Below are positions 1 through 42,255 of a stretch of 64,000 nt of DNA, in pieces (within the stretch, counting starts at the first letter, position 1; each line of letters starts with the position of its first letter). The DNA is from Acidisoma sp. L85 (GTDB taxonomy: Bacteria > Pseudomonadota > Alphaproteobacteria > Acetobacterales > Acetobacteraceae): positions 74,351 through 138,350 of the forward strand of contig NZ_LMUQ01000049.1 of the NCBI RefSeq assembly GCF_009765865.1, in the 5' to 3' direction. The translations under genes and the position numbers were made by a program. The notes below the pieces were generated by a model. That model had not been told where the DNA came from. It saw only the letters and a program-made list of their open reading frames with translations, and did no database searches.

Positions 1-407
1 CATGGACGCTGGGCAGTCCACACGGTGACGCCTCAATTTGCGGTAGCGTCTAGATTATCTGACCCTTGGAAACGCGCCAACTAGCCTCCGCGAAGTGCGG
101 GGGGCCAATACTCGGTGAAGGCACGTAGGCACCCAACCGCGGTGTCCGGATCTTTTGCATCGGGCCGTGAACCTCGGTGAGATCGTTGCCAACGAGAAGT
201 CGGGCTGGTGCGGCAACGTCCGTTGCGGATCCTAACGACAGTCGGGTGATAGGGTGGCGACTATCGACAGACAGGCATTCATATCGCAAATTGCGGTTGA
301 AACTCATGAAATGCAGTTTTAGACATCACTTCTTAGAGTTCGCGCTGACGCCTTAGCCGGCAAGACGTCTTCCCGCGCGAGCTAGGTCATCCCGAGGGGG
401 AAGGCGC
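1..407. other. Leader region without a supported gene
   Basis: I see no convincing gene in these first 407 bases. One minus-strand open frame (307 to 50, 85 codons) has no ribosome binding site in front of its ATG and matches nothing I recognise, so I do not call it. The last 20 bases carry a purine-rich run (gagggggaagg) that serves as the ribosome binding site of the following small regulator. Any promoter for the regulator and the Hyf-like genes would have to lie here. Confidence 0.5.
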
Positions 408-653
408 ATGATTACGGCGTCACAGATGCGAGCGGCGCGTGCCCTGCTGGGGATGGACCAGCGCGAGCTCGCTGAGAGCTCCGGCCTTTCACTGCCGACG
501 ATTCAGAGAATGGAGGCCAGTGATGGCGTCATCCGCGGGAACGTTGATTCCCTGATGAAGTTGATTACTGCGCTGGAGGTCGCTGGCGTCGTGCTGATCG
601 GCGAAGGTGTGCCAAGCGCTGGTGGCGGCCGTGGCGTGAGGCTGAAGACGTGA
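408..653 (+). CDS. Small XRE-family helix-turn-helix regulator
   Basis: The product is 81 residues, essentially one Cro/C1-type DNA-binding domain. Residues 5-60 show the helix-turn-helix pattern: ALLGMDQRELAESSGLS is helices 1-2, and SLPTIQRMEAS is the recognition helix region. The ATG sits about 5 bases after a strong GAGGGGGAAGG ribosome binding site. It ends 46 bases before the Hyf-like operon on the same strand, so it may be co-transcribed with and may regulate that operon; this is inferred from position only. No sensor domain is present. Stand-alone XRE proteins of this size with the LRAARALLG-type start are common in alphaproteobacteria, and their targets are mostly unknown. Confidence 0.8.
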   Translation: MITASQMRAARALLGMDQRELAESSGLSLPTIQRMEASDGVIRGNVDSLMKLITALEVAGVVLIGEGVPSAGGGRGVRLKT

Positions 654-699: not shown

Positions 700-2700
700 G
701 TGATCATCGGCATTCTCCTCTGCGTTGTCGCGCTGCTGGCCCTCGCCATGGCCGCGACCGCTCTGGTCCGGGGCAAGCTTGCGACTCCTGTTGTCTATTC
801 CGGCTGTCTGCTTCTGTCGCTCGTGCTCGCCACGCTTGCCGCGGTCTCGGTTGTTGCGGCGCCCACAACCACAATTTTGCCAATAGGATTGCCATGGGTC
901 GGGGCGCGGTTTCGCCTCGATGCGCTCGCCGCCGCCTTTCTGGCGATCATCAATATCGGCGCGGCGGGCGCGAGCGCCTTTGGTATCGGCTATGGGCGGC
1001 ACGAGACTACGCCGGGCCGGGTGTTGCCCTTCTTCCCAGCCTTCCTGGCCGCCATGAACCTCGTGGTGCTCGCGGCCGACGCCTATAGCTTCCTGTTTGC
1101 CTGGGAGCTCATGTCCCTGACCTCCTGGGCGCTTGTGATGTCGACGCAGCGCAGCCCGGGAACGGCGCGAGCGGGGTTCGTCTACCTGCTCATGGCGAGT
1201 CTCGGGACCTTCGCGCTATTGCTCGGCTTCGGGCTGCTGTCGGGCGGCGGAGGCTTCTATACCTTCGATGCGATGCGCACGCATCCTTTGCCGCCTGGTT
1301 TGGCGGCGCTGGCCTTGTTTCTCGTGTTGATCGGCGCTGGGTCGAAAGCGGGCCTCGTTCCGTTGCACATCTGGCTGCCGCTCGCGCATCCCGCGGCACC
1401 GAGCCATGTCTCCGCGCTGATGAGCGGGGTGATGACCAAGGTCGCCATCTACGCCTTCATTCGCATCACCTTCGACCTGCTCGGGCCGATGGTCTGGTGG
1501 TGGAGTGCGCCGGTCCTGATACTCGGCGGCTGCACGGCGGCGATGGGCGTGCTCCACGCGCTGATGGAGACCGACCTCAAACGCGTGCTCGCCTACAGCA
1601 CCATCGAGAATGTCGGCATCATCTTCGTGGCACTCGGACTCGCCATGGCATTCAAGGCGAGCGGCTTGGCGGGTGCGGCGGCGCTTGCCCTGACGGCGGC
1701 GCTGTTCCACGCGATGAACCACATGCTGTTCAAAGGCGTGCTGTTCTACGGCGCCGGCACGGTGATCGTGGCGACAGGCGAGCGCAGCCTTGAGCGGCTG
1801 GGCGGTCTGATCAAGCGCATGCCCGTTTCCTCGGCCGCAGTGCTGGTCGGTAGCATGGCGATTTCGGCGCTGCCGCCGTTCAACGGCTTCGCGTCGGAAT
1901 GGCTTATTTTCCAGAGCATTCTCGTCAGCCCGCAACTGCCGCAAATGGGGCTGAAGCTGCTGGTGCCGGCGATCGGCGTGTTGCTTGCTCTGGCGGCGGC
2001 GCTCGCGGCAGCCTGTTTCGTGCGGGCCTTTGGCACAACCTATCTTGGGCGTCCGAGGAGTGCGGCGGCCGAGGGAGCGGTTGAGGCCGATCGGTGGTCG
2101 ATCGGCGCGATGGTTGTCTTCGCCGCGCTGTGCTTGGCGGCGGGAATTTTCCCGACGATCGTCATTGATTGGTTGCAGCCGGTCTCGCGCCTTCTCGTCG
2201 GCGGGGCGATGCCGGCGCAAGGCGGCGGCAACTGGCTTTCCATCGTACCGGTGTCGGCTAGCCGCAGTTCCTATAATGGCTTTCTGGTTTTTGCTTTTGT
2301 GGTGGCTTCCGCAGGAATCGTGGCGACCGCGGTGCATCGGTTCGCGTCCCGCGCCGTGCGTCGCGCTCCGGCCTGGGATTGCGGCTATCCCGGCGCTGGC
2401 CCGGTCGCGCAGTATTCGGCGACGAGCCTGTCGCAACCTCTCCGGCGCGTTTTCGGCTCGGTCGTATTTGCGTCGCGCGAGCAGGTCGAGATGCCGCCGC
2501 CCGGCGATATGCGGCCCGCGCGGCTGCAAAGGATCCTCCGCGACCCTGTCTGGGATCTTGGCTACGCGCCGGTGGCGAGAAGCGTGAATGCCGCGGCGAC
2601 CGTGCTCAATCGCCTGCAGTTCCTGACGATCCGCCGTTATCTGGGGCTGGTGTTCCTGACGCTGGTTCTGCTGCTCGTGGCGCTTGCGCTGTGGGAGTAG
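700..2700 (+). CDS. hyfB: Hydrogenase-4 subunit B-like antiporter membrane subunit (Hyf/Ehr complex)
   Basis: This 666-residue hydrophobic protein belongs to the NuoL/MrpA antiporter family and is close in length to E. coli HyfB. The conserved proton-channel residues are present: Glu136 in the WELMS motif and Lys216 in GSKAGLVP, followed by HIWLPLAHPAAPSHVSA. Its C-terminus carries the HyfB-type soluble segment and final membrane helix (WDLGYAPVARS) rather than the long lateral helix of NuoL. The start is the GTG at 700; no better start lies nearby. It is the first gene of six packed Hyf-like genes. In such complexes this subunit is thought to move ions across the membrane, driven by redox chemistry in the peripheral arm. 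Here that chemistry is unclear because the large subunit lacks NiFe ligands. Confidence 0.88.
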   Translation: MIIGILLCVVALLALAMAATALVRGKLATPVVYSGCLLLSLVLATLAAVSVVAAPTTTILPIGLPWVGARFRLDALAAAFLAIINIGAAGASAFGIGYGRHETTPGRVLPFFPAFLAAMNLVVLAADAYSFLFAWELMSLTSWALVMSTQRSPGTARAGFVYLLMASLGTFALLLGFGLLSGGGGFYTFDAMRTHPLPPGLAALALFLVLIGAGSKAGLVPLHIWLPLAHPAAPSHVSALMSGVMTKVAIYAFIRITFDLLGPMVWWWSAPVLILGGCTAAMGVLHALMETDLKRVLAYSTIENVGIIFVALGLAMAFKASGLAGAAALALTAALFHAMNHMLFKGVLFYGAGTVIVATGERSLERLGGLIKRMPVSSAAVLVGSMAISALPPFNGFASEWLIFQSILVSPQLPQMGLKLLVPAIGVLLALAAALAAACFVRAFGTTYLGRPRSAAAEGAVEADRWSIGAMVVFAALCLAAGIFPTIVIDWLQPVSRLLVGGAMPAQGGGNWLSIVPVSASRSSYNGFLVFAFVVASAGIVATAVHRFASRAVRRAPAWDCGYPGAGPVAQYSATSLSQPLRRVFGSVVFASREQVEMPPPGDMRPARLQRILRDPVWDLGYAPVARSVNAAATVLNRLQFLTIRRYLGLVFLTLVLLLVALALWE

Positions 2701-2708
2701 CGGCCGGC

Positions 2709-3656
2709 ATGGTTGGGACGCTGGCGGCTCAGCTTCTGCAGATGCTGCTCGTGCTGGCTCTGGCGCCGGGCGTGACGGGGCTCGTCCGTAAGCTAAAGGC
2801 GAGGCTGCAGCGGCGAATCGGGCCGCCGGTATTGCAGCCCTATCGCGACTTGCGGCGCTTGCTTGGCAAAGAGGTCGTGCTGGCCGAGAGCACATCCTGG
2901 CTGTTCCGCGCCGCGCCGTATCTCATCTTCGCCACGACCTGGGTTTCGGCGGCGCTGGTGCCGACCTTCCAGGCAGGGCTGCTGTTCAGCTGGACCGGCG
3001 ATCTCATCGCCATTGTCGCACTGCTGGGTGCCGCACGGTTTCTGCAGGCGCTCGCGGCATTGGATGCCGGCACCAGCTTCGGCGGCATTGGCGCGAGCCG
3101 CGAAATGATGATCGCGTCGCTCGCCGAGCCGGCCATGATCATGGTGGTGTTCACTGTCGCGCTGGTTGCCGGTTCGACGCTGCTCTCCACTATCGCCGAA
3201 TTCATGGTGAACACCGGCGGGCTGCGCGTGTCACTCGGCATGGCGCTGATCGCCCTGGTCATCGTGGCACTGGCCGAGAATGCCCGCATCCCGGTCGATA
3301 ATCCGGCCACGCATCTCGAACTCACGATGGTGCATGAGGCGATGGTGCTGGAATATTCGGGCCGTCATCTGGCGATGATCGAGATGGCGGGGTCGCTGCG
3401 TCTGCTGCTCTATCTGTCGCTGATCGCCTGTATCTTCGCGCCTTTCGGACTGCTCACTCATGCCGCGGGATTGCTCGCGCATGCGGGAGCGCTCGCCGCC
3501 TATCTGCTCAAGATGGTCATCGGCTGCGTCTTGTTGGCGACGTTGGAAACCACGATCGCCAAGATGCGGGTGTTTCGCGTGCCCGACTTCCTGGGCATCG
3601 CGCTGATGCTGGGGCTTCTGGCGACGCTGCTGTTATTCGTCGCGGGGCATATGTGA
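2709..3656 (+). CDS. hyfC: Hydrogenase-4 subunit C-like membrane anchor (NuoH family)
   Basis: The 315-residue product is a NuoH/HyfC-type membrane protein. It holds the signature GPPVLQPYRDLRRLLGKE (the quinone-chamber-side loop of the NuoH family) and an acidic motif LAENARIPVDNPATHLELT typical of HycD/HyfC. I start at the ATG 2709 (MVGTLAAQLL), eight bases after the hyfB stop, because the open frame upstream of it overlaps hyfB. In complex I relatives this subunit joins the peripheral arm to the antiporter subunits and transmits redox-driven movement. It is tightly coupled to the next gene by a TGATG overlap. Confidence 0.88.
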   Translation: MVGTLAAQLLQMLLVLALAPGVTGLVRKLKARLQRRIGPPVLQPYRDLRRLLGKEVVLAESTSWLFRAAPYLIFATTWVSAALVPTFQAGLLFSWTGDLIAIVALLGAARFLQALAALDAGTSFGGIGASREMMIASLAEPAMIMVVFTVALVAGSTLLSTIAEFMVNTGGLRVSLGMALIALVIVALAENARIPVDNPATHLELTMVHEAMVLEYSGRHLAMIEMAGSLRLLLYLSLIACIFAPFGLLTHAAGLLAHAGALAAYLLKMVIGCVLLATLETTIAKMRVFRVPDFLGIALMLGLLATLLLFVAGHM

Positions 3657-4318
3657 TGACGCCCTTTGCCTTCGACGTCGCGCATATGTTTGCCGGCGGC
3701 CTGGTGCTGGTCAGTCTCATGATGCTGTACCAGGACCGGCTTTTGCCGCTGATCAATGTCCTCAGACTGCACTCGTTGCTGCTGACCCTGTCGGTCGCCT
3801 GGCAGGCGCATATCCAGCAATTGCCCGATCTTTATGTCACGGCGGTGATCGCCTTCGGCTTCAAGACCGTGGCAATTCCCATCGTGCTGCGCCGCATGGT
3901 GCTGCGGATGGGCATTCATCGCGAGATCGAGGTCGCGGTCTCGACCGGGTTGACCATGCTGGTGGGCATCGGCCTGATTGCCTTGTCGATGGATCTCATG
4001 CTGCGGGTGACGGCGCGCGCCGCATTGCTTGTGCGAGAGGATGTCGCGCTGTCGCTTTCCGTCGTGCTGCTCGGTCTGCTGATCATGGTGACGCGGCGCA
4101 ATGCCGTGAGTCAGATCATCGGCTTCATGTCGCTGGAGAATGGGCTGGTGCTGGCGGGGACCGGTGCGAGCGGGATGCCGCTGGTGGTGGAAATCAGCGT
4201 CGCCTTCTCGGTGCTCATCGCCTTCATCGTGATCGGCATTTTCCTGTTCCGTATTCGCGAGCGCTTCGACACGGTAGACGTGCAGGCGCTGGACCGCTTC
4301 CGCGGAGAGCGACAATGA
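3656..4318 (+). CDS. hyfE: Hydrogenase-4 subunit E-like membrane protein
   Basis: A 220-residue hydrophobic protein of the HyfE type. The C-terminal half resembles the NuoK fold (TRRNAVSQIIGFMSLENGL, where the SLENG motif carries the membrane glutamate shared with NuoK). The ATG at 3656 overlaps the hyfC stop as TGATG, which suggests translational coupling; a GTG at 3653 is an alternative that adds one residue. HyfE takes the place of NuoJ/NuoK in group 4 hydrogenase-like complexes and links HyfC to the antiporter subunits. Nothing here looks truncated. Confidence 0.85.
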   Translation: MTPFAFDVAHMFAGGLVLVSLMMLYQDRLLPLINVLRLHSLLLTLSVAWQAHIQQLPDLYVTAVIAFGFKTVAIPIVLRRMVLRMGIHREIEVAVSTGLTMLVGIGLIALSMDLMLRVTARAALLVREDVALSLSVVLLGLLIMVTRRNAVSQIIGFMSLENGLVLAGTGASGMPLVVEISVAFSVLIAFIVIGIFLFRIRERFDTVDVQALDRFRGERQ

Positions 4319-5763
4319 GCCTGCTGCCACTCAATCCGGTGAGCGCCTTGCTGCTCACGCCGCTGGTGGCCGCCGCCGTGCTGGCGCTGGTGCAGGATTA
4401 TCGTCTGTCGGCGCGGGTGAACATGGCGGCGAGCGCGATTGCGCTGCTCTTCGCGGTTGTGTTGCTCCGGGGCCATCCGCCGGTGACGCGCTTCTTCATC
4501 ATCGATGACCTCAACATTATTTTCATTCTGCTGAACACGCTGATCGGCCTCACCACCAGCATTTTCAGCGCGAGCTACATCGGCCATGAATTGGAGAGCG
4601 GGCGGCTGACGCCCGGCTATCTGCGTTTTTATCACGCGACCTTTCAACTCATGATGTTCGGCATGAACCTTGCGCTCACGGCCAATAATATCGGCCTGAT
4701 GTGGGTGGCGATCGAGCTTGCGACGCTCACCACGGTCATGATGGTGGGGATCTACCGAACGCATGAGGCGATCGAGGCGGCGTGGAAATACTTCATACTT
4801 GGCAGTGTCGGCATCGCGCTGGCGCTGTTCGGCACCATCCTCGTCTATCTCGCCGCGGTATCGGTGCTCGGGGAGGGTTTGGGTTCGATGGCCTGGAGCA
4901 ACCTGCTTCAGCATGCGACCGCCTTGGACCCGGCGCTGCTCAACGTCGCGCTGATCTTCCTGCTGCTGGGCTATGGCACGAAGGTCGGTCTGGTGCCGAT
5001 GCATGCCTGGTTGCCGGATGCGCATGCCGAGGGCCCGACGCCGGTTTCGGCCGTGCTGTCCGGATTGCTGCTGAACGTGGCGCTCTATGCGCTGCTGCGA
5101 TTCAAGATGTTGATCGAGGCGAGTCCGGGTGCCATCGCGTTTGGGCCGTTGCTGATTCTGCTCGGGCTCGTTTCGCTGCTTTTCGCCGCTTTCATGCTGT
5201 ATCGGCGCCGCGACATAAAGCGGCTGTTCGCTTATTCCTCGATCGAGCATATGGGCATCATCGCCTTCGCCTTCGGCATGGGCGGGCCATTGGGGAATTT
5301 TGCCGGGCTTTTGCAGATGGTCATGCATAGCCTCACAAAATCGGCGATTTTCTTCACGGTCGGGCATGTGGCGCAGGTCAAAGGCACGCAGCGGATCGAT
5401 GAAATCCGCGGGCTGACGACCAGCCATCCGGTGCTTGGCTGGACCCTGGTCGCCGGGGTCGTGGCAATAGCGGGACTACCGCCGTTCGGGATCTTCACGA
5501 GCGAGTTTCTTCTCATCACGTCCACTTTTGCCCGGGCGCCGGTGCTGGCTGTCATCGCCGTGATCGGGTTGCTGGTGGCTTTCGGCGCGCTGCTGTTCCA
5601 GATGAACCGCCTGGCCTTTGGCGAGCCGACCGGTAGCAATGCCGCGGTGCGGGCCTCCTATGTGCCGATCTTCGTTCATCTCGCTTTGGTTCTGGCGGCG
5701 GGGCTGTATTTGCCGAACGTGATGGTCGGCTGGTTTCAGAATGTCGCGGTGCTGCTGAAATGA
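4315..5763 (+). CDS. hyfF: Hydrogenase-4 subunit F-like antiporter membrane subunit
   Basis: A 482-residue antiporter-like membrane subunit of the NuoL/M/N superfamily. The channel residues are visible: Glu134 in WVAIELATLTT and Lys223 in GYGTKVGLVPMHAWLPDAH. Later comes the LFAYSSIEHMGIIAFAFG helix that is common to HyfF and Ehr proteins. The ATG overlaps the hyfE stop as ATGA. With HyfB this gives the complex two antiporter-like modules; no hyfD is present, so the membrane arm is shorter than in the full E. coli Hyf complex. Identity as a HyfF-type rather than NuoN-type subunit rests on neighbourhood and the SIEHMG motif. Confidence 0.86.
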   Translation: MSLLPLNPVSALLLTPLVAAAVLALVQDYRLSARVNMAASAIALLFAVVLLRGHPPVTRFFIIDDLNIIFILLNTLIGLTTSIFSASYIGHELESGRLTPGYLRFYHATFQLMMFGMNLALTANNIGLMWVAIELATLTTVMMVGIYRTHEAIEAAWKYFILGSVGIALALFGTILVYLAAVSVLGEGLGSMAWSNLLQHATALDPALLNVALIFLLLGYGTKVGLVPMHAWLPDAHAEGPTPVSAVLSGLLLNVALYALLRFKMLIEASPGAIAFGPLLILLGLVSLLFAAFMLYRRRDIKRLFAYSSIEHMGIIAFAFGMGGPLGNFAGLLQMVMHSLTKSAIFFTVGHVAQVKGTQRIDEIRGLTTSHPVLGWTLVAGVVAIAGLPPFGIFTSEFLLITSTFARAPVLAVIAVIGLLVAFGALLFQMNRLAFGEPTGSNAAVRASYVPIFVHLALVLAAGLYLPNVMVGWFQNVAVLLK

Positions 5764-7256
5764 TCGCTGAGGGCCCCACACTCGATCCCATGGCGCTGCC
5801 GGGCTGGGCTGTGGCCGGTCATTGGCCTTGGCCTCGGCTTGCGGTCTCGCCGGAGGTATGGGCGGAGGCGGCAGAACGTCTGGGTAATGGCGCGCTGGTG
5901 TTGCTCGGACTGTGGGGAGATTTCGGCGCGGTCCATATGGCGATCGCGGATGCGGTGGATCCGGCTCGCATTCTCGTGCTGAGTCTGCATTGTCCGGATG
6001 GAACCTACCCCTCCGTTGGGCGCGCTCATCCGCCGGCGATCCGGCTGGAGCGCGCCACACAGGATCTTTTCGGCACAAGCGCGATCGGTCTGCCGGATAG
6101 CCGGCCATGGCTTGATCACGGGCTATGGGACGAGCAGGCCAAGGCTGCGGCCTACGAGTTCCTCCCGGTTGAGGCTGAGGACGTCCACCAGATTCCGGTC
6201 GGGCCGGTGCATGCCGGCATCATCGAGCCCGGCCATTTTCGCTTCACCGCGGATGGCGAGACGATCGTGCGGCTCGAGGCGCGGCTTGGCTATACGCATC
6301 GCGGCATCGAGAATCGTCTGCAGGGCATGCCATTGGAGCAGGCGGCGCGGCTGGCGGGCCGGTGCTCGGGCGATTCGACCGTTGCCTATACGCTCGCTTT
6401 CTGCCGGGCGGCGGAGGCCGCGATGGGATGGGAGCCGCCGCGCCGGGCGGTTTGGTTGCGCGCACTGATGGCGGAGTTGGAGCGTCTCGCGAACCATCTC
6501 GGCGATATCGGCGCCATCTGCAACGATGCGGGTTTCGCCATCCTGCTCGCGCGGTGCGGCGTGCTGCGGGAGGATGTGCTGCGTATCGGCGCCGCATGTT
6601 TCGGACACCGGCTGATGATGGACCGGATCGTGCTCGGCGGTGTCGCGGTGGATCTGGATGCGACGGATTTTGCGCTCATCCGCGCGCTGGTGCCGGATGT
6701 GCGGAGCCATCTGAAGCCTTTGATGGCGCTATACGATAAAACCGCTTCGCTGCAGGATCGCACAGTTGGGACCGGTATTCTGCGACCAGCGCTGGCCGCG
6801 CAGTTCGGGGCTGGCGGATATGTCGGCCGCGCGTCCGGTCGCCGCTGCGATGCGCGGCGCTGGCCTGGCTATGCGCCGTATGACGAGCTCAACTTCGATA
6901 TTCCGGTTCTCACCAAGGGCGATGTCGATGCGCGGCTGCGCATCCGGATCCTAGAGGTGGAGCAATCCTTGCGGCTGGTCGAACAAATTGTGTTCCGCAT
7001 GCCCAATGGCGAGATCCAGGTGCCGGTGCCACCCGCCCATGGCGGCGAGGGTATGGCCATCGTCGAAGGCTTTCGCGGCGATATTCTGGTCTGGCTGCGG
7101 GTCGATACGGCCGGGCATGTCGCACGGTGCCATCTGCGTGACCCGTCCTGGTTCCAATGGCCTTTGCTGGAGGCGGTGGTCGAGGGCAACATCATCGCGG
7201 ATTTCCCGCTCTGCAATAAGTCGTTCAATTGTTCCTATGCGGGGCATGATCTCTGA
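5760..7256 (+). CDS. hyfG: Hyf-like large subunit (NuoC-NuoD fusion) lacking NiFe-binding cysteines
   Basis: The 498-residue protein fuses a NuoC-like domain (about residues 1-135, ending ERATQDLFGTSAIGLPDSRP) to a large-subunit domain. RLEARLGYTHRGIENRLQGM marks the start of the second part. In catalytic group 4 hydrogenases the N-terminal motif is RxCGxC and the C-terminal motif is DPCxxC. Here the N-terminal site reads GRCSGDSTVAYT, with a single cysteine (Cys202). The C-terminus reads LCNKSFNCSYAGHDL, with Cys485 and Cys491 separated by five residues and no DPC. Both bridging CxxC pairs are therefore missing and no NiFe site can be drawn. This matches the energy-converting hydrogenase-related (Ehr) proteins, whose reaction is unknown. 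The ATG overlaps the hyfF stop as ATGA. Confidence 0.85.
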   Translation: MIAEGPTLDPMALPGWAVAGHWPWPRLAVSPEVWAEAAERLGNGALVLLGLWGDFGAVHMAIADAVDPARILVLSLHCPDGTYPSVGRAHPPAIRLERATQDLFGTSAIGLPDSRPWLDHGLWDEQAKAAAYEFLPVEAEDVHQIPVGPVHAGIIEPGHFRFTADGETIVRLEARLGYTHRGIENRLQGMPLEQAARLAGRCSGDSTVAYTLAFCRAAEAAMGWEPPRRAVWLRALMAELERLANHLGDIGAICNDAGFAILLARCGVLREDVLRIGAACFGHRLMMDRIVLGGVAVDLDATDFALIRALVPDVRSHLKPLMALYDKTASLQDRTVGTGILRPALAAQFGAGGYVGRASGRRCDARRWPGYAPYDELNFDIPVLTKGDVDARLRIRILEVEQSLRLVEQIVFRMPNGEIQVPVPPAHGGEGMAIVEGFRGDILVWLRVDTAGHVARCHLRDPSWFQWPLLEAVVEGNIIADFPLCNKSFNCSYAGHDL

Positions 7257-7765
7257 TGCGCGGCACCCTGCTCGAAAGCCTGCTTCGCGGGCCTTTCACG
7301 GAGAAGGCGCCGCTGGGGGCTGACGGCGATATCGCGCGGATGGCGGCTGAACTCGATGTCTCGGCGCAGCGGCGTCTGGGCCGCAGCCTGTCATTGCGAT
7401 TGGTCGATGCGGGGTCCTGCAACGCATGCGAGCTGGAACTCAATGCGCTGAGCAATGCCTATTACGATCTGGAACGTTTTGGACTGCGCTTCGTCGCGTC
7501 GCCGCGTCATGCGGATGTGCTGCTCGTTACCGGGCCGGTCACCAAGAATATGCGGGAGGCGCTGTTGCGGACGCACGATGCAATGCCGAGCCCGAAATGG
7601 GTGGTGGCAGTGGGAGACTGCGCGACCTGCGGCGGGCTGCTGGGCGGTGGCTATGCCTGTCTGAACGGAGCGGGCGACGTGCTGCCGGTCGATCTTAGAA
7701 TTCCGGGATGCCCGCCGACGCCTACGCAGTTACTGCAAGGCCTGCTCGCGCTATTCGCGAAATAG
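7256..7765 (+). CDS. hyfI: Hyf-like small subunit with intact 4Fe-4S ligands (NuoB family)
   Basis: A 169-residue NuoB/HyfI-family protein. All four cluster ligands are present: Cys55 and Cys58 (SCNACELE), Cys122 (GDCATCGG) and Cys152 (GCPPTP). The CxxC spacing is that of group 4 hydrogenases, not the adjacent CC of true NuoB. The ATG overlaps the hyfG stop as TGATG. An iron-sulfur cluster next to a large subunit without a NiFe site implies that electron transfer, perhaps to quinone or another acceptor, is retained. It is the last gene of the set and lies tail to tail with the emrB-like gene, 22 bases away. Confidence 0.87.
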   Translation: MRGTLLESLLRGPFTEKAPLGADGDIARMAAELDVSAQRRLGRSLSLRLVDAGSCNACELELNALSNAYYDLERFGLRFVASPRHADVLLVTGPVTKNMREALLRTHDAMPSPKWVVAVGDCATCGGLLGGGYACLNGAGDVLPVDLRIPGCPPTPTQLLQGLLALFAK

Positions 7766-17961: not shown

Positions 17962-18145
17962 AACTCATGCGGAACAGACATGGACGCCGTCGCGCGTTAG
18001 AAGGCCGCGGCGAAATACGTGGACGGGACTCTGGTCGTCGCGACAGACTAGTTGTCACGGCTGCGGCAAGCCTTCCAGGACATCGAGGCCACATGACGGT
18101 GGCGCCCGCTGCTGGGGAGATGCGGATCATGAGTTGCTTCCAAAG

Positions 18146-18919
18146 GTGACCGGCGAGGTACCCCTGCGGGTCGGGCTGTTTCCGACTTGTCTGGTCGATC
18201 TTTTCCGGCCGGTTGTGGGTTTCGCCGCCGCTCAGCTTTTAACAAGAGCCGGTTGCGAGGTTAGCCTTCCCGAGGGGCTCACCTGCTGCGGCCAGCCCTC
18301 ATATAATTCCGGAGACAGGCGTAGCGCGCAGCGACTGGCGCGGCAGGTTATCTCTGCCTGCGAGGGCTTCGACTATATCGTCATCCCCTCGGGTTCCTGT
18401 GGCGGTATGCTTCGTCATCACTATCCGGAGTTGCTGGCGGATGATGCGCTTTGGGCGCCGCGTGCGCGGCAGCTCGCCGAGAGGTCCTACGAGCTGCTGT
18501 CTTTCCTCGTCGATGTGCTGAAGCTGGAGGGCGTCGATACAGCCTTCCCCGGGACAGCGACGTATCACGATTCTTGCTCGGGGCTGCGGGAACTCGGGGT
18601 TAAAACGCAGCCGCGAAAGCTGCTGGCCAGCGTCGAGGGGTTGGCGCTGACCGAGATGCCGGGTGCGGAAACCTGCTGTGGGTTTGGCGGAACGTTTTGC
18701 GTGAAATATCCCGCGATCTCGAACCGGATGGTTTCCGACAAATGCACGGAGGCGCAGGCGACCGGGGCGAAGCTGCTGCTGGCGGGCGATCTCGGTTGCC
18801 TCATGAACATCGCGGGCAAGCTGTCACGCCTCGGGTCGCCGATTGAGGTGCGGCATGTGGCGGAGGTTCTCGCGGGGCGGCTGGAGGTTCCGGCGCTTTG
18901 CGGGAGGGCGGATCCATGA
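18146..18919 (+). CDS. lutA: Lactate utilization protein A (CCG-domain iron-sulfur subunit)
   Basis: A 257-residue protein with two CCG domains. The first has LTCCGQPSYNSG, the second AETCCGFGGTFCVKY; CLVDLFRP near the N-terminus is a LutA hallmark. LutABC oxidises L-lactate (or a similar 2-hydroxyacid) to the 2-oxoacid through iron-sulfur clusters. The start is uncertain. The GTG 18146 overlaps (GTGA) the end of a six-codon open frame that has a better ribosome binding site; an in-frame TTG lies at 18134. The stop overlaps lutB as ATGA. Confidence 0.88.
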   Translation: MTGEVPLRVGLFPTCLVDLFRPVVGFAAAQLLTRAGCEVSLPEGLTCCGQPSYNSGDRRSAQRLARQVISACEGFDYIVIPSGSCGGMLRHHYPELLADDALWAPRARQLAERSYELLSFLVDVLKLEGVDTAFPGTATYHDSCSGLRELGVKTQPRKLLASVEGLALTEMPGAETCCGFGGTFCVKYPAISNRMVSDKCTEAQATGAKLLLAGDLGCLMNIAGKLSRLGSPIEVRHVAEVLAGRLEVPALCGRADP

Positions 18920-20331
18920 AACCGCAAAGCCACGCGTTCAAGTCCGAGTCGGCCAAGGCACTTGAGGATCCGGCGCTGCAGCATGCGCTGTCGCAAATTC
19001 AGGGTCTCTTGGTGAACGGCCGCCGTGCGGCAGTGGACGCGCTGCCAGAGTTCCAGGCGCTGCGGGAGGCCGGGCGGGCGATCAAGGACCACACGCTGGA
19101 CCATCTCGACCTCTACCTGGAGCATTTCGCCAGCCAAGTGGAGGCGCGGGGCGGGCAAGTACACTTCGCCGCCACGGCCGAGGAGGCTTGCGCCGCCGTG
19201 CTGGCGATCTGCCGGGACGCCGGCGCCGAGCGGGTGATCAAGAGCAAGTCGATGGTGACGGAGGAGATCGGCCTCAACGCCGCTCTAGAGGCGGCGAGCA
19301 TTCGGCCAGTAGAGACGGATCTGGGCGAATACATCATCCAGCTACGCGACGAACCGCCGAGCCATATCATCGCCCCGGCGGTCCATCTCGGCCGCCGCCA
19401 GGTCGAGGAGGCGTTTCGCGCCAATCACACCTCGCTGCCGGTGAGCCGGAAAATCGATGAGCCGGCGGAGCTGCTGGCTGAGGCGCGGCATGTGCTGCGC
19501 TCGCAGTTCGTGTCGGCAGATGTCGGCATTACTGGCGCCAATTTCCTGGTGGCCGAGACGGGTTCGGCGGTGGTGGTCACGAATGAGGGCAACGCCGACC
19601 TCACGATGACGCTGCCGCGCGTGCATATCGTGCTGACGGGCATCGAGAAGGTGGTGCCGACACTGGAGGATGCGCTGGTTCTGCTGCGGCTGCTGGTCCG
19701 CTCGGCGACCGGCCAATCCGCGACGGGCTACACGACGATCGCCAGCGGCAAGCGCGAGGCTCGGGATCTGGACGGACCGGACGCCTTCCATGTGGTGCTG
19801 GTGGACAATGGCCGCTCGAAGCTGCTGGGGTCGCGTAACCGGGAGATGCTTCGCTGCATCCGCTGCGGCGCCTGCATGAACCACTGCCCGGTCTATGGCG
19901 CAGTGGGCGGCCATGCCTATGGCTGGGTCTATCCGGGGCCGATGGGCGCGGTGCTCACGCCGAATTTCGTCGGGCTGCATGAGGCGAAAGACCTTCCCAA
20001 CGCCTCCACCTTTTGTGGGCGCTGCGAGAGTGTGTGTCCCGTGATGATCCCGCTGCCAAAGCTGATGCGGAACCTGCGGGAGGAGCAGTTCGATGCGCGG
20101 GACGTGGCGAGGTCCCAGCGATGGGCGCTTGGGCTCTGGGCGACCGTTGCGGCGCATCCGACTCTCTATCGTTTTGCAAGTCGGCTGGGCGCCCGCGTTT
20201 TGGCGAGGCTGGGCGGCCGGCGTGGCAAGCTGGCGCGGTTGCCATTGGCGCGCGGTTGGACCGGCCATCGCGATCTGCCCGCGCCGACGGGTTCGACTTT
20301 CACCGATCTCTGGAAGGGCGGCGCGCGGTGA
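18916..20331 (+). CDS. lutB: Lactate utilization protein B (LUD domain plus 2x4Fe-4S)
   Basis: A 471-residue LutB. An N-terminal LUD domain (about 40-300) is followed by two ferredoxin-type motifs, CIRCGACMNHCPVY and CGRCESVCPVMIPLPK, and a C-terminal LutB tail. The ATG at 18916 has a GGGAGGGCGGATCC leader and overlaps the lutA stop. LutB is the electron-carrying core of the LutABC lactate oxidase. Its adjacency to the HisD-like operon suggests that the 2-hydroxyacid it oxidises may be a product of that pathway. Confidence 0.93.
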   Translation: MKPQSHAFKSESAKALEDPALQHALSQIQGLLVNGRRAAVDALPEFQALREAGRAIKDHTLDHLDLYLEHFASQVEARGGQVHFAATAEEACAAVLAICRDAGAERVIKSKSMVTEEIGLNAALEAASIRPVETDLGEYIIQLRDEPPSHIIAPAVHLGRRQVEEAFRANHTSLPVSRKIDEPAELLAEARHVLRSQFVSADVGITGANFLVAETGSAVVVTNEGNADLTMTLPRVHIVLTGIEKVVPTLEDALVLLRLLVRSATGQSATGYTTIASGKREARDLDGPDAFHVVLVDNGRSKLLGSRNREMLRCIRCGACMNHCPVYGAVGGHAYGWVYPGPMGAVLTPNFVGLHEAKDLPNASTFCGRCESVCPVMIPLPKLMRNLREEQFDARDVARSQRWALGLWATVAAHPTLYRFASRLGARVLARLGGRRGKLARLPLARGWTGHRDLPAPTGSTFTDLWKGGAR

Positions 20332-21005
20332 GTGGCGGCCGCGAGACGGTACTGTCCTCGCTGCGGCGTGCCTTGGGTGTCACCGGCGACGATACCGTGC
20401 GTCGCGCGGGAGTGGCTGCGCGGCTGGAGGGCGCGGGCGGCCCTTCTCTGGCATTGGGCCGCCTCAGCGGTGATGCGGCGGTGCAGGCTTTCGTCACGCG
20501 GGCGCAGGGGCTTTCGGCGAGTGTCGAGCATGTCGCGGAGATCGAGGGTTTGGGCTCGGCGGCGGCGCGGGTCATTCGGCGCTTGGGGTTGCCGCCTCGT
20601 GTGGTGATGGCGTCCGACCCTTTGCTGCTGCGGGGTATGTCGGGATTCGCGGTACAGGGAATCGCCACGCGCTCGGGGGCCGCCGAAGCGGCCGACTCGG
20701 TCGGCGTGAACGTGGCGGCGGCTGCGGTGGCAGAGACTGGGGTGGTGATGATGACGTCTCGCCCGGAGACGCCGACGAGCCTCAACCTGCTGCCCGAACT
20801 CTGGATCTGCGCGGTGCCGCGTTCGCGCATCGTCGGGAGTTACGAGGAGGCTCTTGCGCTCCTACGGCGTGACTATGGTCTTCGTCTGCCGCGGGCAGTG
20901 AATTTCATCGGCGGGCCATCCCGGACCGGCGACATCGAGGAGATCCTGCAACTTGGCGCGCACGGGCCGAAGACGGTTCACCTTGTGATCATCGATGCGC
21001 TTTAG
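20328..21005 (+). CDS. lutC: Lactate utilization protein C (LUD domain)
   Basis: A 225-residue LUD-domain protein of the LutC/YkgG type, with the family stretch GVNVAAAAVAETGVVMM and the C-terminal PRSRIVGSYEEAL and SRTGDIEEILQLGAHGP. The GTG start overlaps the lutB stop as GTGA; the longer open frame upstream lies inside lutB. It completes the LutABC set. It lies tail to tail with the next SDR gene. Confidence 0.92.
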   Translation: MSGGRETVLSSLRRALGVTGDDTVRRAGVAARLEGAGGPSLALGRLSGDAAVQAFVTRAQGLSASVEHVAEIEGLGSAAARVIRRLGLPPRVVMASDPLLLRGMSGFAVQGIATRSGAAEAADSVGVNVAAAAVAETGVVMMTSRPETPTSLNLLPELWICAVPRSRIVGSYEEALALLRRDYGLRLPRAVNFIGGPSRTGDIEEILQLGAHGPKTVHLVIIDAL

Positions 21006-30793: not shown

Positions 30794-31159
30794 GTGCAGC
30801 CCATCCTTGCGCAGTATTGGCCGATCCTCGTTTTCCTGGGCGTCGCCGGCTTTATCGCCGCGGCCATGGTGGGCGGCTCGCTACTGGCGGCGCGGCAGAA
30901 GCCCTATGCGGAGAAGCTTTCCGCTTACGAATGCGGCTTCGATGCCTTCGACGACGCCCGTAGGCGCTTCGATGTCCGTTTTTATCTCGTTTGCCTGCTT
31001 TTCATTATCTTTGACCTTGAGGTGGCCTTCCTGTTTCCCTGGGCGGTCAGCCTCTCCCATATCGGATTGTTTGGTTTCTTCACGATGTTGGGCTTTCTCG
31101 CGATCCTGACGGTTGGTTTTATCTACGAGTGGCGCAAGGGCGCCCTGGACTGGGAGTGA
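30794..31159 (+). CDS. nuoA: NADH-quinone oxidoreductase subunit A
   Basis: A 121-residue, three-helix membrane subunit of complex I, with the conserved [20 protein letters not shown] loop and [11 protein letters not shown]. The GTG 30794 is chosen because GAGGAGG lies eight bases before it; starting further upstream would place this site inside the gene. It is the first of fourteen nuo genes. Its stop overlaps the nuoB start as GTGA. Confidence 0.97.
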
Positions 31160-31740
31160 GCGTCGTGGACCTGCCGCATCCCACCGAAGGCGCGCCGCTG
31201 CCCGTCGCTTGGAACCGCGAGATGCTGCCGCCTGGTCCCGACCAGGAGGACGTCATCCGCAGCATTACCGGCGAGATCGCCGGGCGCGGTTTCGTGGTCG
31301 GCAATATCGACAAGCTGGTGAACTGGGCGCGCACCGGCAGCCTGTGGCCGATGACCTTCGGCTTGGCCTGCTGCGCCGTCGAGATGATCCACGCCTATAT
31401 GCCGCGCTACGACCTCGACCGCATGGGCATTATCCCGCGCGCGAGCCCGCGTCAGAGCGACGTCATGATCGTGTCCGGCACCCTGACCAACAAGATGGCG
31501 CCGGCTCTGCGGAAACTCTACGACCAGATGCCCGAGCCGCGCTGGGTCATCTCGATGGGCAGTTGCGCCAATGGTGGCGGCTACTATCACTACTCCTATT
31601 CGGTGGTGCGCGGCTGCGACCGGATCGTGCCGGTCGATATCTACGTGCCGGGCTGCCCGCCGACGGCTGAAGCGCTGGTCTACGGCATCATGCAGCTACA
31701 GAAGAAGATCCGCCGCACAGGGACGATCCTCCGTGGCTGA
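31156..31740 (+). CDS. nuoB: NADH-quinone oxidoreductase subunit B
   Basis: A 194-residue NuoB carrying cluster N2 ligands: the adjacent cysteines in [10 protein letters not shown], then GSCANGG and GCPPTAE. The adjacent CC marks it as true complex I, in contrast to the CxxC of the Hyf-like protein at 7.3 kb. The start is GTG 31156 by overlap with nuoA; GTG 31165 is an alternative. Confidence 0.97.
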
Positions 31741-32380
31741 GGCGCCGTCGCCCGCCCCGGCCGAAGAGGCGCTTCCGATTCCCCCGACACCGATCCAGCA
31801 GCTTACCGCAAACGTGGGCGCGCTGCCGCGCGTGATGAGGGCTTCCGTCGAGATCGGCGAGGTGGTGATCCATACCGATCGCGACTCGCTGCTCGGACTG
31901 TTGGAGACCCTGCGGGACGACCCGCGCTTCGCCTTCGAGCAGCTCATGGATATTTGCGGTGTCGACTGGCCGCAGCGGGCGGAGCGCTTCGACGTTGTTT
32001 ACAACCTGCTCTCCGTCTCCCTGAACCATCGCATCCGGGTCATCGTGACGACTGACGAGGCCTCGGCTGTGCCCTCCGTCTGTGGTGTGTGGCCCTGCGC
32101 GACCTGGTGGGAGCGGGAGGCTTACGACCTGTTCGGCATCACCTTCTCGGGGCAAGCCGATCTGCGCCGCATCCTCACCGATTACGGCTTCGTCGGGCAT
32201 CCGCTGCGCAAGGACTTTCCCCTCACCGGCTATGTCGAGGTGCGATACGACGAGGAGCGGCGCCAGGTCATCTATGAGCCGGTGAAGCTGACGCAGGATT
32301 ATCGCCGGTTCGATTTCATCTCGCCTTGGGAGGGCATGACGACGCTCCCCGGAGACGAGAAAGCGCATCGCGAGGGCTGA
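31733..32380 (+). CDS. nuoC: NADH-quinone oxidoreductase subunit C
   Basis: A 215-residue NuoC, separate from NuoD as in most alphaproteobacteria. The family block [16 protein letters not shown] followed by [19 protein letters not shown] is intact. About 25 Pro/Ala-rich residues precede the folded domain. The GTG start lies inside the end of nuoB, an eight-base overlap. It is part of the peripheral arm. Confidence 0.96.
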
Positions 32381-32383
32381 GAG

Positions 32384-33592
32384 ATGAGCGATACGGCAAT
32401 TCGCGAGAAGACGACCAAGACGGTCGAGATCGATAGCCATGCGATGAATTTCGGGCCGCAGCATCCTGCGGCCCATGGCGTGTTGCGGCTCATCCTCGAG
32501 ATGGATGGCGAGGTTGTGGAACGTGCCGATCCGCATATCGGCCTGCTCCATCGCGGCACCGAGAAGCTGATGGAGTATCGGACGTATCTGCAGAACGTCC
32601 CGTATTTCGACCGGCTCGACTACGTGAGCCCGATGGCGCAGGAGCACTGCTACTCGATGGCGGTCGAGAAGCTGCTGGGCATCACCGTGCCAGAGCGCGC
32701 AGAATGGATCCGCACGATGTTCTGCGAGATCACGCGCATTCTCAACCATCTGCTGAACGTGACATCCTTTGCGCTCGATGCCGGCGCGCTCACGCCGAGC
32801 CTTTGGGGCTATGAGGAGCGCGAGAAGCTCATGGAGTTCCATGAGGCGGCGTCCGGCGCACGCATGCACGCCAATTACGTGAGGCCGGGCGGCGTGAATC
32901 GCGATTTGCCTGCCGGTCTCGATGAGCGGATCCTCGCCTGGTGCGACGACTTCCCGAATTATCTCAACGATCTCGAAGGGCTGCTGACGAACAACAGAAT
33001 CTGGAAGCAGCGCACCGTCAACATTGGCGTCGTTTCCGCTGAAGAGGCGCTCGCCTGGGGCTTTAGTGGCCCGAACTTGCGAGCTTCGGGCGTGCCATGG
33101 GATCTGCGTCGCGCACAGCCCTACGCGAAATACAATGATGTCGCCTTTCAGGTGCCGGTAAGCCGCAATGGCGATTGCTACGACCGCTACCTCATGCGCG
33201 TCGCCGAGATGCGTGAGAGCGTGAAGATTATCCAGCAGTGTATTGCGAAGATGAAGCCCGGGCCGGTGCGAATTCAGGATAACAAGTTCACGCCACCGAA
33301 ACGCGCTGAAATGAAGCGTTCGATGGAAGCGCTGATCCATCACTTCAAGCTCTTTACCGAAGGCTTCCATGTTCCGGCCGGCGCCACCTACACGACGGTT
33401 GAGGCGCCCAAGGGCGAGTTTGGGGTCTATCTGATCGCCGACGGCACGAACCGGCCCTATCGCTGCAAGATCCGGGCGACGGGGTTCTCGCATTTGCAGG
33501 CCATGGACAAGATGGCTCATGGGCACATGCTGGCCGATGCGGTCGCGATCATCGGCTCCATCGACCTCGTTTTCGGCGAAATCGACAGGTAA
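32384..33592 (+). CDS. nuoD: NADH-quinone oxidoreductase subunit D
   Basis: A 402-residue subunit forming the quinone site with NuoB. It has [15 protein letters not shown] at the N-terminus, with the quinone-binding His in the HPAAHG loop, and the family C-terminus [13 protein letters not shown]. It is homologous to the large subunit of NiFe hydrogenases but has no metal cysteines, as expected. The ATG follows nuoC by three bases. Confidence 0.97.
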
Positions 33593-33594
33593 TC

Positions 33595-34335
33595 ATGAGC
33601 GAAACGAGCATCGCCGCCGCCGCCGAGCCCACCAGCTTCGCGTTCGATCCGCTCAGCGATGAGCAGATCGCCATCATTCTCAAGCGCTACCCGCCGGGAC
33701 GGCAGGCGAGCGCCGTCATTCCCGTCTTGTATGTCGTGCAGAAGCAGATGGGCCGCCTGACCGGCAGCGCGTGGGTGCCGCGCGTCGCGATGGATGCGGT
33801 GGCCGCGTTGCTGGAGATGCCGCCGATCCGCGTCTATGAGGTCGCGACCTTTTACCTCATGTTCAACACCAAGCCGATCGGGCGTTTCCATCTCCAGGTT
33901 TGCACCACGACGCCATGCTGGTTGCGCGGCTCGGATGATGTGGTCGCGGCCTGCAAGCGCGCGACGGGCATCCAGCACATGGGCGAGACGAGCGTCGATG
34001 GGCTCTTCACCATGACCGAGGTCGAGTGTCTTGGCGCCTGCGTGAATGCGCCGATGATGCAGATCAACGACGACTACTATGAGGACCTGGACGGGCCGCG
34101 AACCGAGGCGCTGCTCGCCGCGTTTCGCCGGGGCGAGACGCCGCCGATTGGTTCGACGATCGGGCGCGAGGGTTCCATGAGCGTGGGCGGTCCGACGACG
34201 CTGACGGATGAGGCGGCGCTGTGGAACCCGGAACATTATGCGGCGGAACGCCGCGCACGCGCCGAGGCGGAGGCTGCCGCAGCGGCGGCCGCCGCGGCAC
34301 CGCCGCCGGCCGCACCGCCGCCGGCTGGGGAGTGA
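33595..34335 (+). CDS. nuoE: NADH-quinone oxidoreductase subunit E
   Basis: A 246-residue NuoE. The thioredoxin-like 2Fe-2S domain has its ligands in CTTTPCW and CLGACVN. The protein ends in an unusual tail of about 35 residues, low in complexity and made of Ala, Glu, Arg, then Pro. This makes it longer than the roughly 160-220 residues usual for the family. The tail likely lies on the surface; its role is unknown. Confidence 0.96.
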
Positions 34336-34339
34336 GGTC

Positions 34340-35656
34340 ATGCTGAAAGACCACGACCGCATCTTCACCAACCTGTATGGCCAGCACGACTGGCACCTCG
34401 ATGGCGCGCGTGCTCAAGGCGATTGGGATGGCACGGCGGATTTGCTGGCGCGTGGACGAGACGCCATCGTCAACGAAATCAAGGCTTCCGGCTTGCGCGG
34501 CCGTGGCGGCGCCGGCTTTCCGGCGGGGCTCAAGTGGAGCTTCATGCCGAAGGATCGCGGCAACAAGCCGGCCTATCTGCTCGTCAACTGCGACGAGAGC
34601 GAGCCCGGCACGTGCAAGGATCGCGAAATCCTCCGCTTTCATCCGCATAAGCTGGTGGAGGGCTGCCTTGTCGCGGGCTTCGCGATGGGGGCGACCGCTG
34701 CCTACTGCTACATTCGTGGCGAATATTACAACGAATATGTTCATCTCCAGACGGCGGTCGAGGAAGCCTACACGGCTGGACTTCTTGGGCCTGACGCCTG
34801 CGGCTCGGGTTACGCCTTCGATGTCTTCGTTCATCGCGGCGCGGGGGCCTATATTTGCGGCGAAGAGACGGCGCTGATCGAGAGCCTTGAGGGCAAGAAG
34901 GGCATGCCGCGCTCCAAGCCGCCATTCCCGGCGGCGATGGGGCTCTATGGTTGCCCTAGCACTGTCACCAATTGCGAGACGGTGGCAGTGGCGCCGACCA
35001 TTATGCGGCGCGGCGCCAAATGGTTCGCGGGCTTTGGGCGCGATAAGAACCAGGGCACGAAACTCTTCTGCATTTCCGGGCATGTGAACCGTCCTTGCAC
35101 CGTCGAGGAATCGATGAGCGTTCCGCTGCGGGAGCTCATCGAGGTTCATGCGGGCGGGGTGCGCGGCGGCTGGGACAATCTGCTGGCCGTCATTCCCGGC
35201 GGCGTCTCGGTGCCGATGATCACGAAGGAAATGGCCGAAACCGCTCTGATGGATTTCGACAGCCTGCGCGAATTCCGCAGCGGTCTCGGAACGGGCGCCG
35301 TTATCGTCATGGACAAGTCCACTGACGTCATCAAGGCGATCGCGCGGATCTCGGCCTTTTACAAGCACGAGAGCTGTGGCCAGTGCACGCCTTGCCGTGA
35401 AGGCACTGGCTGGATGATGCGGATCATGAATCGCATGGTCGAGGGTCGCGCCGAGGTCGAGGAGATCGATATGCTCGACCAGATGTCGCGGCAGATCGAA
35501 GGCCATACGATTTGCGCACTGGGCGACGCGGCGGCCTGGCCGATCCAGGGCTTGATACGCCATTTCCGCCCGGTTCTGGAGGAGCGGATCGCCCAGTATA
35601 AGCGCGACCTTCTGGCGAAACGGCCGCCGATGCCAATGCCGATCGCGGCGGAGTAG
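34340..35656 (+). CDS. nuoF: NADH-quinone oxidoreductase subunit F
   Basis: A 438-residue NADH- and FMN-binding subunit. [18 protein letters not shown] is the FMN/NADH site, and cluster N3 ligands lie in [10 protein letters not shown] plus a later cysteine in HTICALGD. The ATG 34340 is chosen; the longer frame upstream lies in nuoE. It is the NADH entry point of complex I. Confidence 0.97.
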
Positions 35657-35661
35657 GCGGG

Positions 35662-37749: not shown

Positions 37750-37758
37750 GGCAGGGCG

Positions 37759-38769: not shown

Positions 38770-38784
38770 GAGGATCTTCGTCGC

Positions 38785-39273: not shown

Positions 39274-39282
39274 GGCGGCGTC

Positions 39283-40011: not shown

Positions 40012-40014
40012 GGG

Positions 40015-40323: not shown

Positions 40324-40327
40324 GACC

Positions 40328-42250: not shown

Positions 42251-42255
42251 GCGTG

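Follow-up and report, generated by a model that had tools for sequence, protein, structure and literature searches.

A hydrogenase-4-like operon without NiFe ligands in Acidisoma sp. L85 and its place among the energy-converting hydrogenase-related complexes

Results

An intact six-gene operon

The stretch of DNA analysed here (hereafter the window) comprises 64,000 nt of contig NZ_LMUQ01000049.1 from Acidisoma sp. L85 (assembly GCF_009765865.1). Between positions 700 and 7765 it holds six open reading frames (ORFs) on one strand, all free of internal stops, whose products resemble the subunits of hydrogenase-4 (Table 1). Adjacent genes overlap by 1 or 4 bases, the sole exception being an 8-base gap between the first and the second. 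Pfam and NCBIfam assign the six proteins to complex I or hydrogenase-4 families, with the HyfE-like protein under the curated cut-off in both, and the large subunit also matches the NuoD profile (3.4e-64), under that profile's cut-off. A first-pass annotation of the window had described these genes as a Hyf-like operon of the energy-converting hydrogenase-related (Ehr) group whose large subunit has lost the NiFe site; the operon is indeed there and intact, and its large and small subunits are called EhrL and EhrS below.

Loss of the NiFe ligands

Both cysteine pairs of the NiFe centre, including the C-terminal DPCxxC, are gone from EhrL, as that annotation held. When EhrL is aligned with Escherichia coli HycE (7z0s_E; HMMER, E 2.9e-50), the CGIC of HycE falls opposite S203-G204-D205-S206 and its DPCYSC opposite N490-C-S-Y-A-G, and the four positions that carry the ligands in the HycE of E. 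coli, Pantoea and Klebsiella are S203, S206, S492 and G495 in EhrL. The cysteines that EhrL does possess (78, 202, 215, 254, 266, 280, 363, 457, 485, 491) form no CxxC anywhere in the protein, so the pairs have not simply moved elsewhere, the outcome on which the first reading had agreed to fall. That reading went astray in taking Cys202 for a remaining ligand: it aligns one residue ahead of CGIC, and its position is Cys in three of 81 rows, the others having Thr (24), Ile (16), Val (29), Ala (4) or Leu (5). Across these rows, which were chosen by similarity, position 485 is Cys in all 81 and position 491 in 78; C485 is substituted in divergent members and C491 is Leu in 8 of 40 rows.

HycE is cleaved at its C-terminal extension, and EhrL terminates in GHDL at the alignment column where HycE runs on into that extension. 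HypD, which is required for building the NiFe centre, was not found in the Acidisoma genome (99.5% complete; other Hyp proteins were not searched), nor in 14 of 19 Ehr-bearing alphaproteobacterial genomes, three of these 14 being less than 90% complete. It is present in two genomes (G021 and G153) that encode a CGIC-type group 4 large subunit. In a hand-picked comparison of 72 genomes of at least 3 Mb and at least 90% completeness, which drops five of the 19 Ehr-bearing genomes, HypD occurs in 5/14 genomes with Ehr versus 6/58 without, and nine of the 14 lack it; Ehr is, if anything, commoner among genomes with HypD.

Table 1. Features of the ehr-like locus (positions in the window)
Position	Strand	Feature	Evidence and remarks
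312..328	+	Candidate operator TGATG-N7-CATCA	Upstream of regulator; 2 mismatches, weak alone
408..653	+	XRE-type helix-turn-helix regulator, 81 aa	Pfam HTH_3 1.2e-6
700..2700	+	HyfB/EhrA-like antiporter subunit, 666 aa, GTG start	NF005086 4e-249; conserved E136, K216, E400
2709..3656	+	HyfC/NuoH/EhrB-like membrane anchor, 315 aa	Pfam NADHdh 1e-38, from the frame starting 15 bases further 5'
3653..4318	+	HyfE/EhrC-like membrane subunit, 221 aa, GTG start	NF008556 9e-21, under curated cut-off
4315..5763	+	HyfF/EhrD-like antiporter subunit, 482 aa	NF005043 6e-246; conserved E134, K223, K342, E397
5760..7256	+	EhrL, HyfG/HycE/NuoCD-like large subunit, 498 aa, without NiFe ligands or C-terminal extension	
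7256..7765	+	EhrS, HyfI/HycG/NuoB-like small subunit, 169 aa, one CxxC-type 4Fe-4S site	Pfam Oxidored_q6 5.5e-32

Relatives, phylogeny and selection

At least 576 relatives were confirmed, of which the best 80 loci were taken for locus counts. Gene order is B-C-E-F-G-I in 68 of the 80; among the other 12, 11 end at a contig edge and one (L091) has no small-subunit match. An Ehr-like large subunit is common, occurring in 19 of 190 sampled alphaproteobacterial genomes, and in a sample of 349 Pseudomonadota there are 62 (43–72% identity, 31 of them from one family) out of 69 matches in all, the remaining seven being HycE-like at 28–31% identity. Two alphaproteobacterial genomes (G056 and G087) have a second copy of the large subunit, 60% and 58% identical to EhrL of the window. 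Records assigned to Terriglobia (L071) and Candidimonas (L036) carry Ehr genes that closely resemble the alphaproteobacterial ones, reflecting either gene transfer or mis-binned contigs.

Ratios of non-synonymous to synonymous substitution (dN/dS, NG86) ranged from 0.026 to 0.413 across 72 gene-pair estimates (12 locus pairs by six genes, the pairs being close relatives chosen by hand with the window itself excluded), which indicates purifying selection on all six genes in the relatives.

In a tree of large subunits, 20 rows without NiFe ligands group together, apart from HycE and NuoD, with support of 100/99; the rows exclude two divergent sequences, G026 and G158, and do not extend to the Ehr proteins of Geobacter, Mycobacterium tuberculosis and Nitrospira. 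In another tree, constraining the Ehr rows together without G026 and G158 was rejected (p 0.036) because these two are placed inside the Ehr group. Both come from small genomes of the window's own family (loci L026 and L027); their large subunits lack the NiFe ligands and have changed the equivalents of H246 and of the beta1–beta2 loop Glu discussed below, and the cluster cysteines of their small subunits are retained. Taken with the six-gene set, the ligand loss and the missing HypD, the tree makes the window operon almost certainly an Ehr complex, as first proposed. The gene composition of Ehr was taken from published descriptions (PMC6688271; PMC7894505), and the comparison with Geobacter ehr is by description only.

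The emptied pocket and its proton relay

The HycE residues implicated in delivering the substrate proton are described as E193 in the beta1–beta2 loop, three residues of the canopy (R478, D529 and S283) and a route by way of H284, E437 and R395, with the canopy Asp described as strictly conserved (PMC9474812). In the HMMER alignment E193, R478, D529, S283, H284, E437 and R395 correspond to EhrL E156, R439, N490, N245, H246, E399 and R357, the HycE residues being mapped as chain number minus 12, an inferred offset that is consistent with the named residues. Conservation was followed in a set of 40 Ehr rows, made up of 30 Pseudomonadota matches (out of 62), the window, Cupriavidus, Paraburkholderia and seven alphaproteobacteria. 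E156, H246, E399, R357 and R439 are invariant in these proteobacterial rows, and the canopy Asp position is Asn in all 40. D205, K487, Y493, G495 and D497 are likewise present in every row, S203 in 37 and S206 in 29. Beyond the 40 rows the canopy position is Asn in Rhodococcus, Asp in Allomeiothermus, and Gly in Caballeronia, Burkholderia multivorans, Mycobacterium branderi and G026/G158.

A quinone-like pocket in place of the NiFe site, which the first-pass annotation had raised, is not supported. His38 and Tyr87 of Nqo4, which we take to be quinone-site residues of complex I, lie opposite I155 and G204, so that the quinone His and Tyr are absent, and a position that is His in both NuoD proteins of the Acidisoma genome is Met or Leu in the Ehr rows. 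EhrS has a CxxC motif of the same length as that of HycG, whereas the organism's own NuoB has tandem CC, and the canopy residue is Asn. An AlphaFold model of EhrL built from 80 rows (pLDDT 83, pTM 0.87) finds its best match among structures of the Protein Data Bank in 7z0s_E (TM-score 0.87), with complex I NuoCD next.

Small subunit and antiporter subunits

The four 4Fe-4S cysteines that had been noted in the small subunit (C55, C58, C122 and C152) are each Cys in all 78 rows examined, and the channel Glu and Lys residues noted in the antiporter subunits (Table 1) are at least 97% conserved (HyfB, n=68; HyfF, n=78). Both similarity and two peptide patterns (PVHAG.IE and RD.SWF.W) guided the choice of these rows and of the 81 EhrL rows, so conservation near these patterns is biased upwards. 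The loop between transmembrane helices 5 and 6 of HyfC reads DNPxTHLELTMxHEA, with slight variation, in four Ehr sequences, unlike HycD and NuoH. In Rhodococcus sp. ZPP a HyfF-like protein (L162:13090-14607) has other residues at the positions of E134, K223, K302 and E397; its EhrL and EhrS retain the pocket signature and all cluster cysteines.

A linked regulator and a palindromic operator

Of 65 loci with sufficient sequence, 40 have a same-strand homologue of the regulator in Table 1 no more than 900 bp ahead of hyfB; overall, a homologue was matched in 49 of the 80 loci, in six of them downstream. Ehr operons are also found in Azospirillum brasilense (L114) and Rhizobium johnstonii (L083), and in A. 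brasilense, perhaps also elsewhere, the XRE gene does not adjoin the operon. Within the regions upstream of the regulator (window 157–407 and 40 others), exact copies of the palindrome TGATG-N7-CATCA are present in 8/41 (0.03 expected), copies allowing one mismatch in 16/41 (0.53 expected) and copies allowing two in 26/41 (5.3 expected); the motif was first spotted in these same, partly closely related sequences, so the enrichment does not amount to an independent test. It also exceeds chance ahead of hyfB genes that have no regulator next to them, with 1/26 exact and 4/26 having one mismatch (0.03 and 0.50 expected). The strict form TGATGNNTNAAACATCA has one site in each of 5 of 16 genomes searched, all upstream of the Ehr regulator as placed by coordinate arithmetic; it was not found in the Acidisoma genome. 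From these patterns we infer that the XRE protein is a local autoregulator, and the operon is probably switched by this small regulator of its own.

FNR/FixK-like sites with up to two mismatches are roughly threefold enriched in the same 41 regions (7 versus 2.2 expected), and the operon may be under oxygen-linked control. Counts for the other sites were 4 versus 1.8 expected (relaxed FNR), 6 versus 3.4 (CRP), 2 versus 1.7 (NifA) and 6 versus 8.4 (sigma54).

Relatives without the cluster, and fluoride riboswitches

Allomeiothermus silvanus (L117) and M. branderi (L159) have Ehr-like operons with intact reading frames and no NiFe ligands in which the EhrS-like protein (L117:10269-11141 and L159:6848-7642) has also had all four proximal 4Fe-4S cysteines replaced. 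The equivalents of C55, C58, C122 and C152 are T/D/E/S in Allomeiothermus and N/D/D/A in M. branderi, and the ferredoxin-like N-terminal part of both proteins looks degenerate by eye, with CxxCxxC only. The membrane subunits were checked at selected positions: Allomeiothermus retains 9/10 in HyfF, 10/11 in HyfB and 10/11 in HyfC, and M. branderi 9/10, 6/11 and 5/11. In the EhrL tree Allomeiothermus joins the main clade (98/94) and M. branderi groups with Caballeronia and Burkholderia multivorans (100/99); a single clade of the two is rejected there (p 0.001) but not in the EhrS tree (p 0.116). Two independent losses of the cluster are therefore likely, though not settled, from these two cases only. 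A Streptomyces EhrS-like protein (L161:8833-9357) has Arg at the first cluster cysteine, with no EhrL match within the 18 kb fetched.

The Rfam fluoride riboswitch (RF01734) was found shortly upstream of the Ehr-like operons of Caballeronia (L119:5167-5237), B. multivorans (L163:3857-3927) and M. branderi (L159:1600-1673), each time on the same strand and in M. branderi with a NUDIX gene intervening. All three operons lack the NiFe ligands and, by the EhrL tree, form a sister clade. The annotation shows DUF190, pyrophosphatase and crcB genes nearby in L163 and DUF190, enolase and universal stress protein genes in L159; the L119 record is without annotation. No such riboswitch was detected in the window, in 12 further alphaproteobacterial loci or in L115, L116, L117 and L162, nor in the Acidisoma genome. 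It matched in 6 of the 19 Ehr-bearing genomes (five over cut-off); by coordinates the match in G066 is 1.6 Mb from Ehr and the others are on different contigs. Control by fluoride was accordingly rejected for the group to which the window belongs, no riboswitch lying near the Ehr loci examined.

Other genes nearby

Clustering of the neighbours of the 80 loci, with a crude choice of ORFs, recovered the six genes, the helix-turn-helix regulator, shadow ORFs on the opposite strand and a methyltransferase-fold gene. The last, spermidine-synthase-like by eye, lies near Ehr in seven loci (L040, L041, L044, L061, L066, L047, L069). L116 contains an annotated fusion of a major facilitator superfamily (MFS) protein and spermidine synthase, with a homologue in L115, neither matching the seven-locus set. 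Elsewhere in the window, the ORFs at 18134–21005 read like a LutABC-type lactate utilisation operon.

Discussion

A working model and what weighs against it

We take the window operon to encode an Ehr complex that still functions, within the superfamily of complex I and group 4 hydrogenases. With a little less than even confidence we tentatively prefer a mechanism in which it translocates ions and passes electrons through one 4Fe-4S cluster to an acceptor in the pocket. A soluble donor would deliver electrons to the lone cluster of EhrS, and from there they would reach a protonatable acceptor held in the emptied NiFe pocket, which would be lined by R201, S203, D205, H246, R439, K487, N490, Y493 and the C-terminal D497-L498. 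Protons could enter by way of the retained loop glutamate (E156) and the H246/E399/R357 relay, and the accompanying charge movement would power the transport of H+ or Na+ by HyfC, HyfE, HyfF and HyfB across the membrane. Neither H+ nor a quinone bound in the manner of complex I is likely to be the acceptor. Because cluster and proton relay are both invariant in the window's group, redox chemistry is favoured there, while the wider group shows that it can be lost. That the cell might thereby run a second ion-pumping complex, as the first-pass annotation suggested, is plausible because a nuo (complex I) operon lies in the window too (31129–45212, identified by reading ORFs) and the same genome has a second NuoD (contig C66); the pumping itself is a prediction.

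Several observations count against such a redox-active complex. The model of EhrL falls below a pLDDT of 50 at 136–174, 478–486 and 491–498, which are the pocket loops, so that the pocket is drawn from the alignment only and no ligand can be placed in it. No recurring electron-input gene was found near the operon in the 80 loci, and a crude ferredoxin pattern matched in two of them, once near the operon. Formate as partner was considered and rejected, formate dehydrogenase alpha (FDH-alpha; TIGR01591) being over cut-off in 11/14 genomes with Ehr and 45/58 without and one Ehr-bearing genome (G043) having a weak match only (2.6e-16); a link to autotrophy was rejected likewise, the RuBisCO family, whose profile also covers RuBisCO-like proteins, being over cut-off in 4/14 versus 11/58. 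The replacement of every proximal-cluster cysteine in two relatives implies, moreover, that some members of the wider group can do without electron transfer. From the literature, Geobacter Ehr is described as more abundant on formate than under hydrogen-containing conditions (PMC7894505), and a formate dehydrogenase–Ehr hypothesis has been put forward with a carrier such as quinone suggested as acceptor (PMC6349859). A search for work on the hyf or hydrogenase-4 genes of Rhizobium, Bradyrhizobium and Azospirillum, or on the Ehr canopy in a hydrogenase context, returned none, most subscription papers being out of reach.

Alternative explanations

The main rival explanation, though less likely than not, is that these complexes are Mrp-like antiporter assemblies for ion or pH homeostasis without redox turnover, in which the old hydrogenase arm would serve as a structural or sensing cap and the cluster of the window's group would either have a structural role or sense redox state. 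Such a role would suit Allomeiothermus and M. branderi, which have lost both NiFe and cluster ligands yet keep 9 of the 10 HyfF positions, and 10/11 and 6/11 of those in HyfB, and it would suit the two losses suggested by the EhrL tree. Fluoride stress, moreover, is described as demanding pH and Na+/H+ homeostasis (PMC11139923), three operons of the sister clade stand behind fluoride riboswitches, and pH homeostasis was itself proposed for Ehr by the Methylacidiphilum authors (PMC6688271). A passive cap, however, would not be expected to preserve the cluster cysteines in 78/78 rows and the pocket proton relay in 40/40; the cluster-less cases number only two, M. branderi keeps just 5/11 HyfC positions, and under the EhrS tree a shared origin of the loss is not rejected (p 0.116).

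What probability remains is divided among quinone, sulfur, relic and hydrogenase readings and others not listed here. A quinone reductase with a soluble donor, in effect a simplified complex I, is improbable: the sub-threshold NuoD match and the quinone-type carrier suggested for formate dehydrogenase–Ehr speak for it, against the missing quinone His and Tyr, the CxxC in place of tandem cysteines, the Met or Leu at the NuoD His position and the canopy Asn, and non-protonatable canopy mutants are described as impairing complex I (PMC9474812). Sulfane-type reduction at the proximal cluster would follow the precedent of MBS, which is reported to have lost part of its NiFe ligands and to function without NiFe or quinone (PMC7684303), and we judge it very unlikely, for the MBS motif is described as three residues shorter with one non-cysteinyl iron, and MBS as keeping two old ligand cysteines and having no proton path, whereas the EhrS motif is of HycG length and EhrL has no ligand cysteine left and does have the proton path. 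Geobacter Ehr has been stated to be non-functional (PMC13194489), no hydrogenase can be assembled, and the literature consulted reports no phenotype, all of which would fit a decaying relic; the low dN/dS in all six genes argues against this, at least for the alphaproteobacterial group, as do the at least 576 relatives and the linked regulator and operator, and we give the relic hardly any credence. Least credible to us is a hydrogenase that still works with another metal or other ligands. In its favour are a general homology with hydrogenase-4 and formate hydrogenlyase and the somewhat commoner HypD in Ehr-bearing genomes (5/14 versus 6/58); against it stand the absence of ligand cysteines, of HypD and of the extension cleaved in maturation, and Nitrospira Ehr is reported as not induced by H2 (PMC12342949).

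Implications

There is some reason to suspect, although the whole is doubtful when its parts are taken jointly, that Ehr branched off within the complex I superfamily and left both hydrogen and quinone chemistry, its common task being stress-linked ion or pH homeostasis through the antiporter modules. On this joint reading the NiFe pocket of the window's group would have been remodelled into a polar one (S-G-D-[ST], N-K-S-F-N and a C-terminal G-x-D-L) with Asn in the canopy, Allomeiothermus and M. branderi would have shed the last core cluster to become complex I relatives without a core redox path, and the riboswitch-linked genes known as 'formate hydrogenlyase' would belong at least partly to the Ehr branch. 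'Formate hydrogen lyase' is listed among genes linked to fluoride riboswitches (PMC2864571; PMC11139923), and one of these sources places it among metabolic changes (PMC11139923); that reading as a metabolic shift is called into question, at least for the three operons examined. The cluster-less relatives suggest that the Ehr family may be about moving ions and not about handling hydrogen.

The residue map indicates which parts of the wiring of hydrogenases and complex I have been retained or lost in Ehr, and the cluster-less relatives and the riboswitch sister clade turn the function of Ehr into concrete questions, namely whether the cluster is needed and whether ions are transported. If coupling truly needs no redox chemistry, this would bear on how electron transfer and pumping are coupled in complex I.

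Comparison with known systems

Ehr complexes were already known, without an assigned reaction, and what is added here is the residue map, the regulator and operator, the cluster-less relatives and the riboswitch clade. The window operon has the same kinds of subunit as the described ehrABCDLS complexes, which likewise lack NiFe ligands and for which the accessible portions of the descriptions assign no reaction (PMC6688271; PMC10284858; PMC12342949; PMC7894505); it differs in its linked XRE regulator and palindromic operator, which are absent from the descriptions consulted. Formate hydrogenlyase and hydrogenase-4 provide the closest solved structure (7z0s_E) and have the proton relay and the NuoC–NuoD fusion in common with the window operon, but EhrL lacks their NiFe ligands and C-terminal extension, has Asn for the canopy Asp, and has no ferredoxin or formate dehydrogenase genes in its operon. 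With complex I (NuoD/NuoB) the fold and the membrane subunits are held in common, whereas the quinone His and Tyr, the tandem cysteines, the NADH module and the canopy Asp are not. MBS and Mbx are alike in having lost NiFe while retaining antiporter modules (PMC7684303). As far as its description goes, MBS differs in keeping two old ligand cysteines, in opening one cluster site and in having no proton path (PMC7684303), features that a HycG-length motif in EhrS and an EhrL without any ligand cysteine do not share. The three fluoride-riboswitch operons examined, finally, are a NiFe-less sister clade by the EhrL tree, and they differ from the window in their riboswitch control, in a small subunit fused to a ferredoxin, and in a pocket that reads SGVD in two and EGIA in M. 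branderi, with EASFG in all three.

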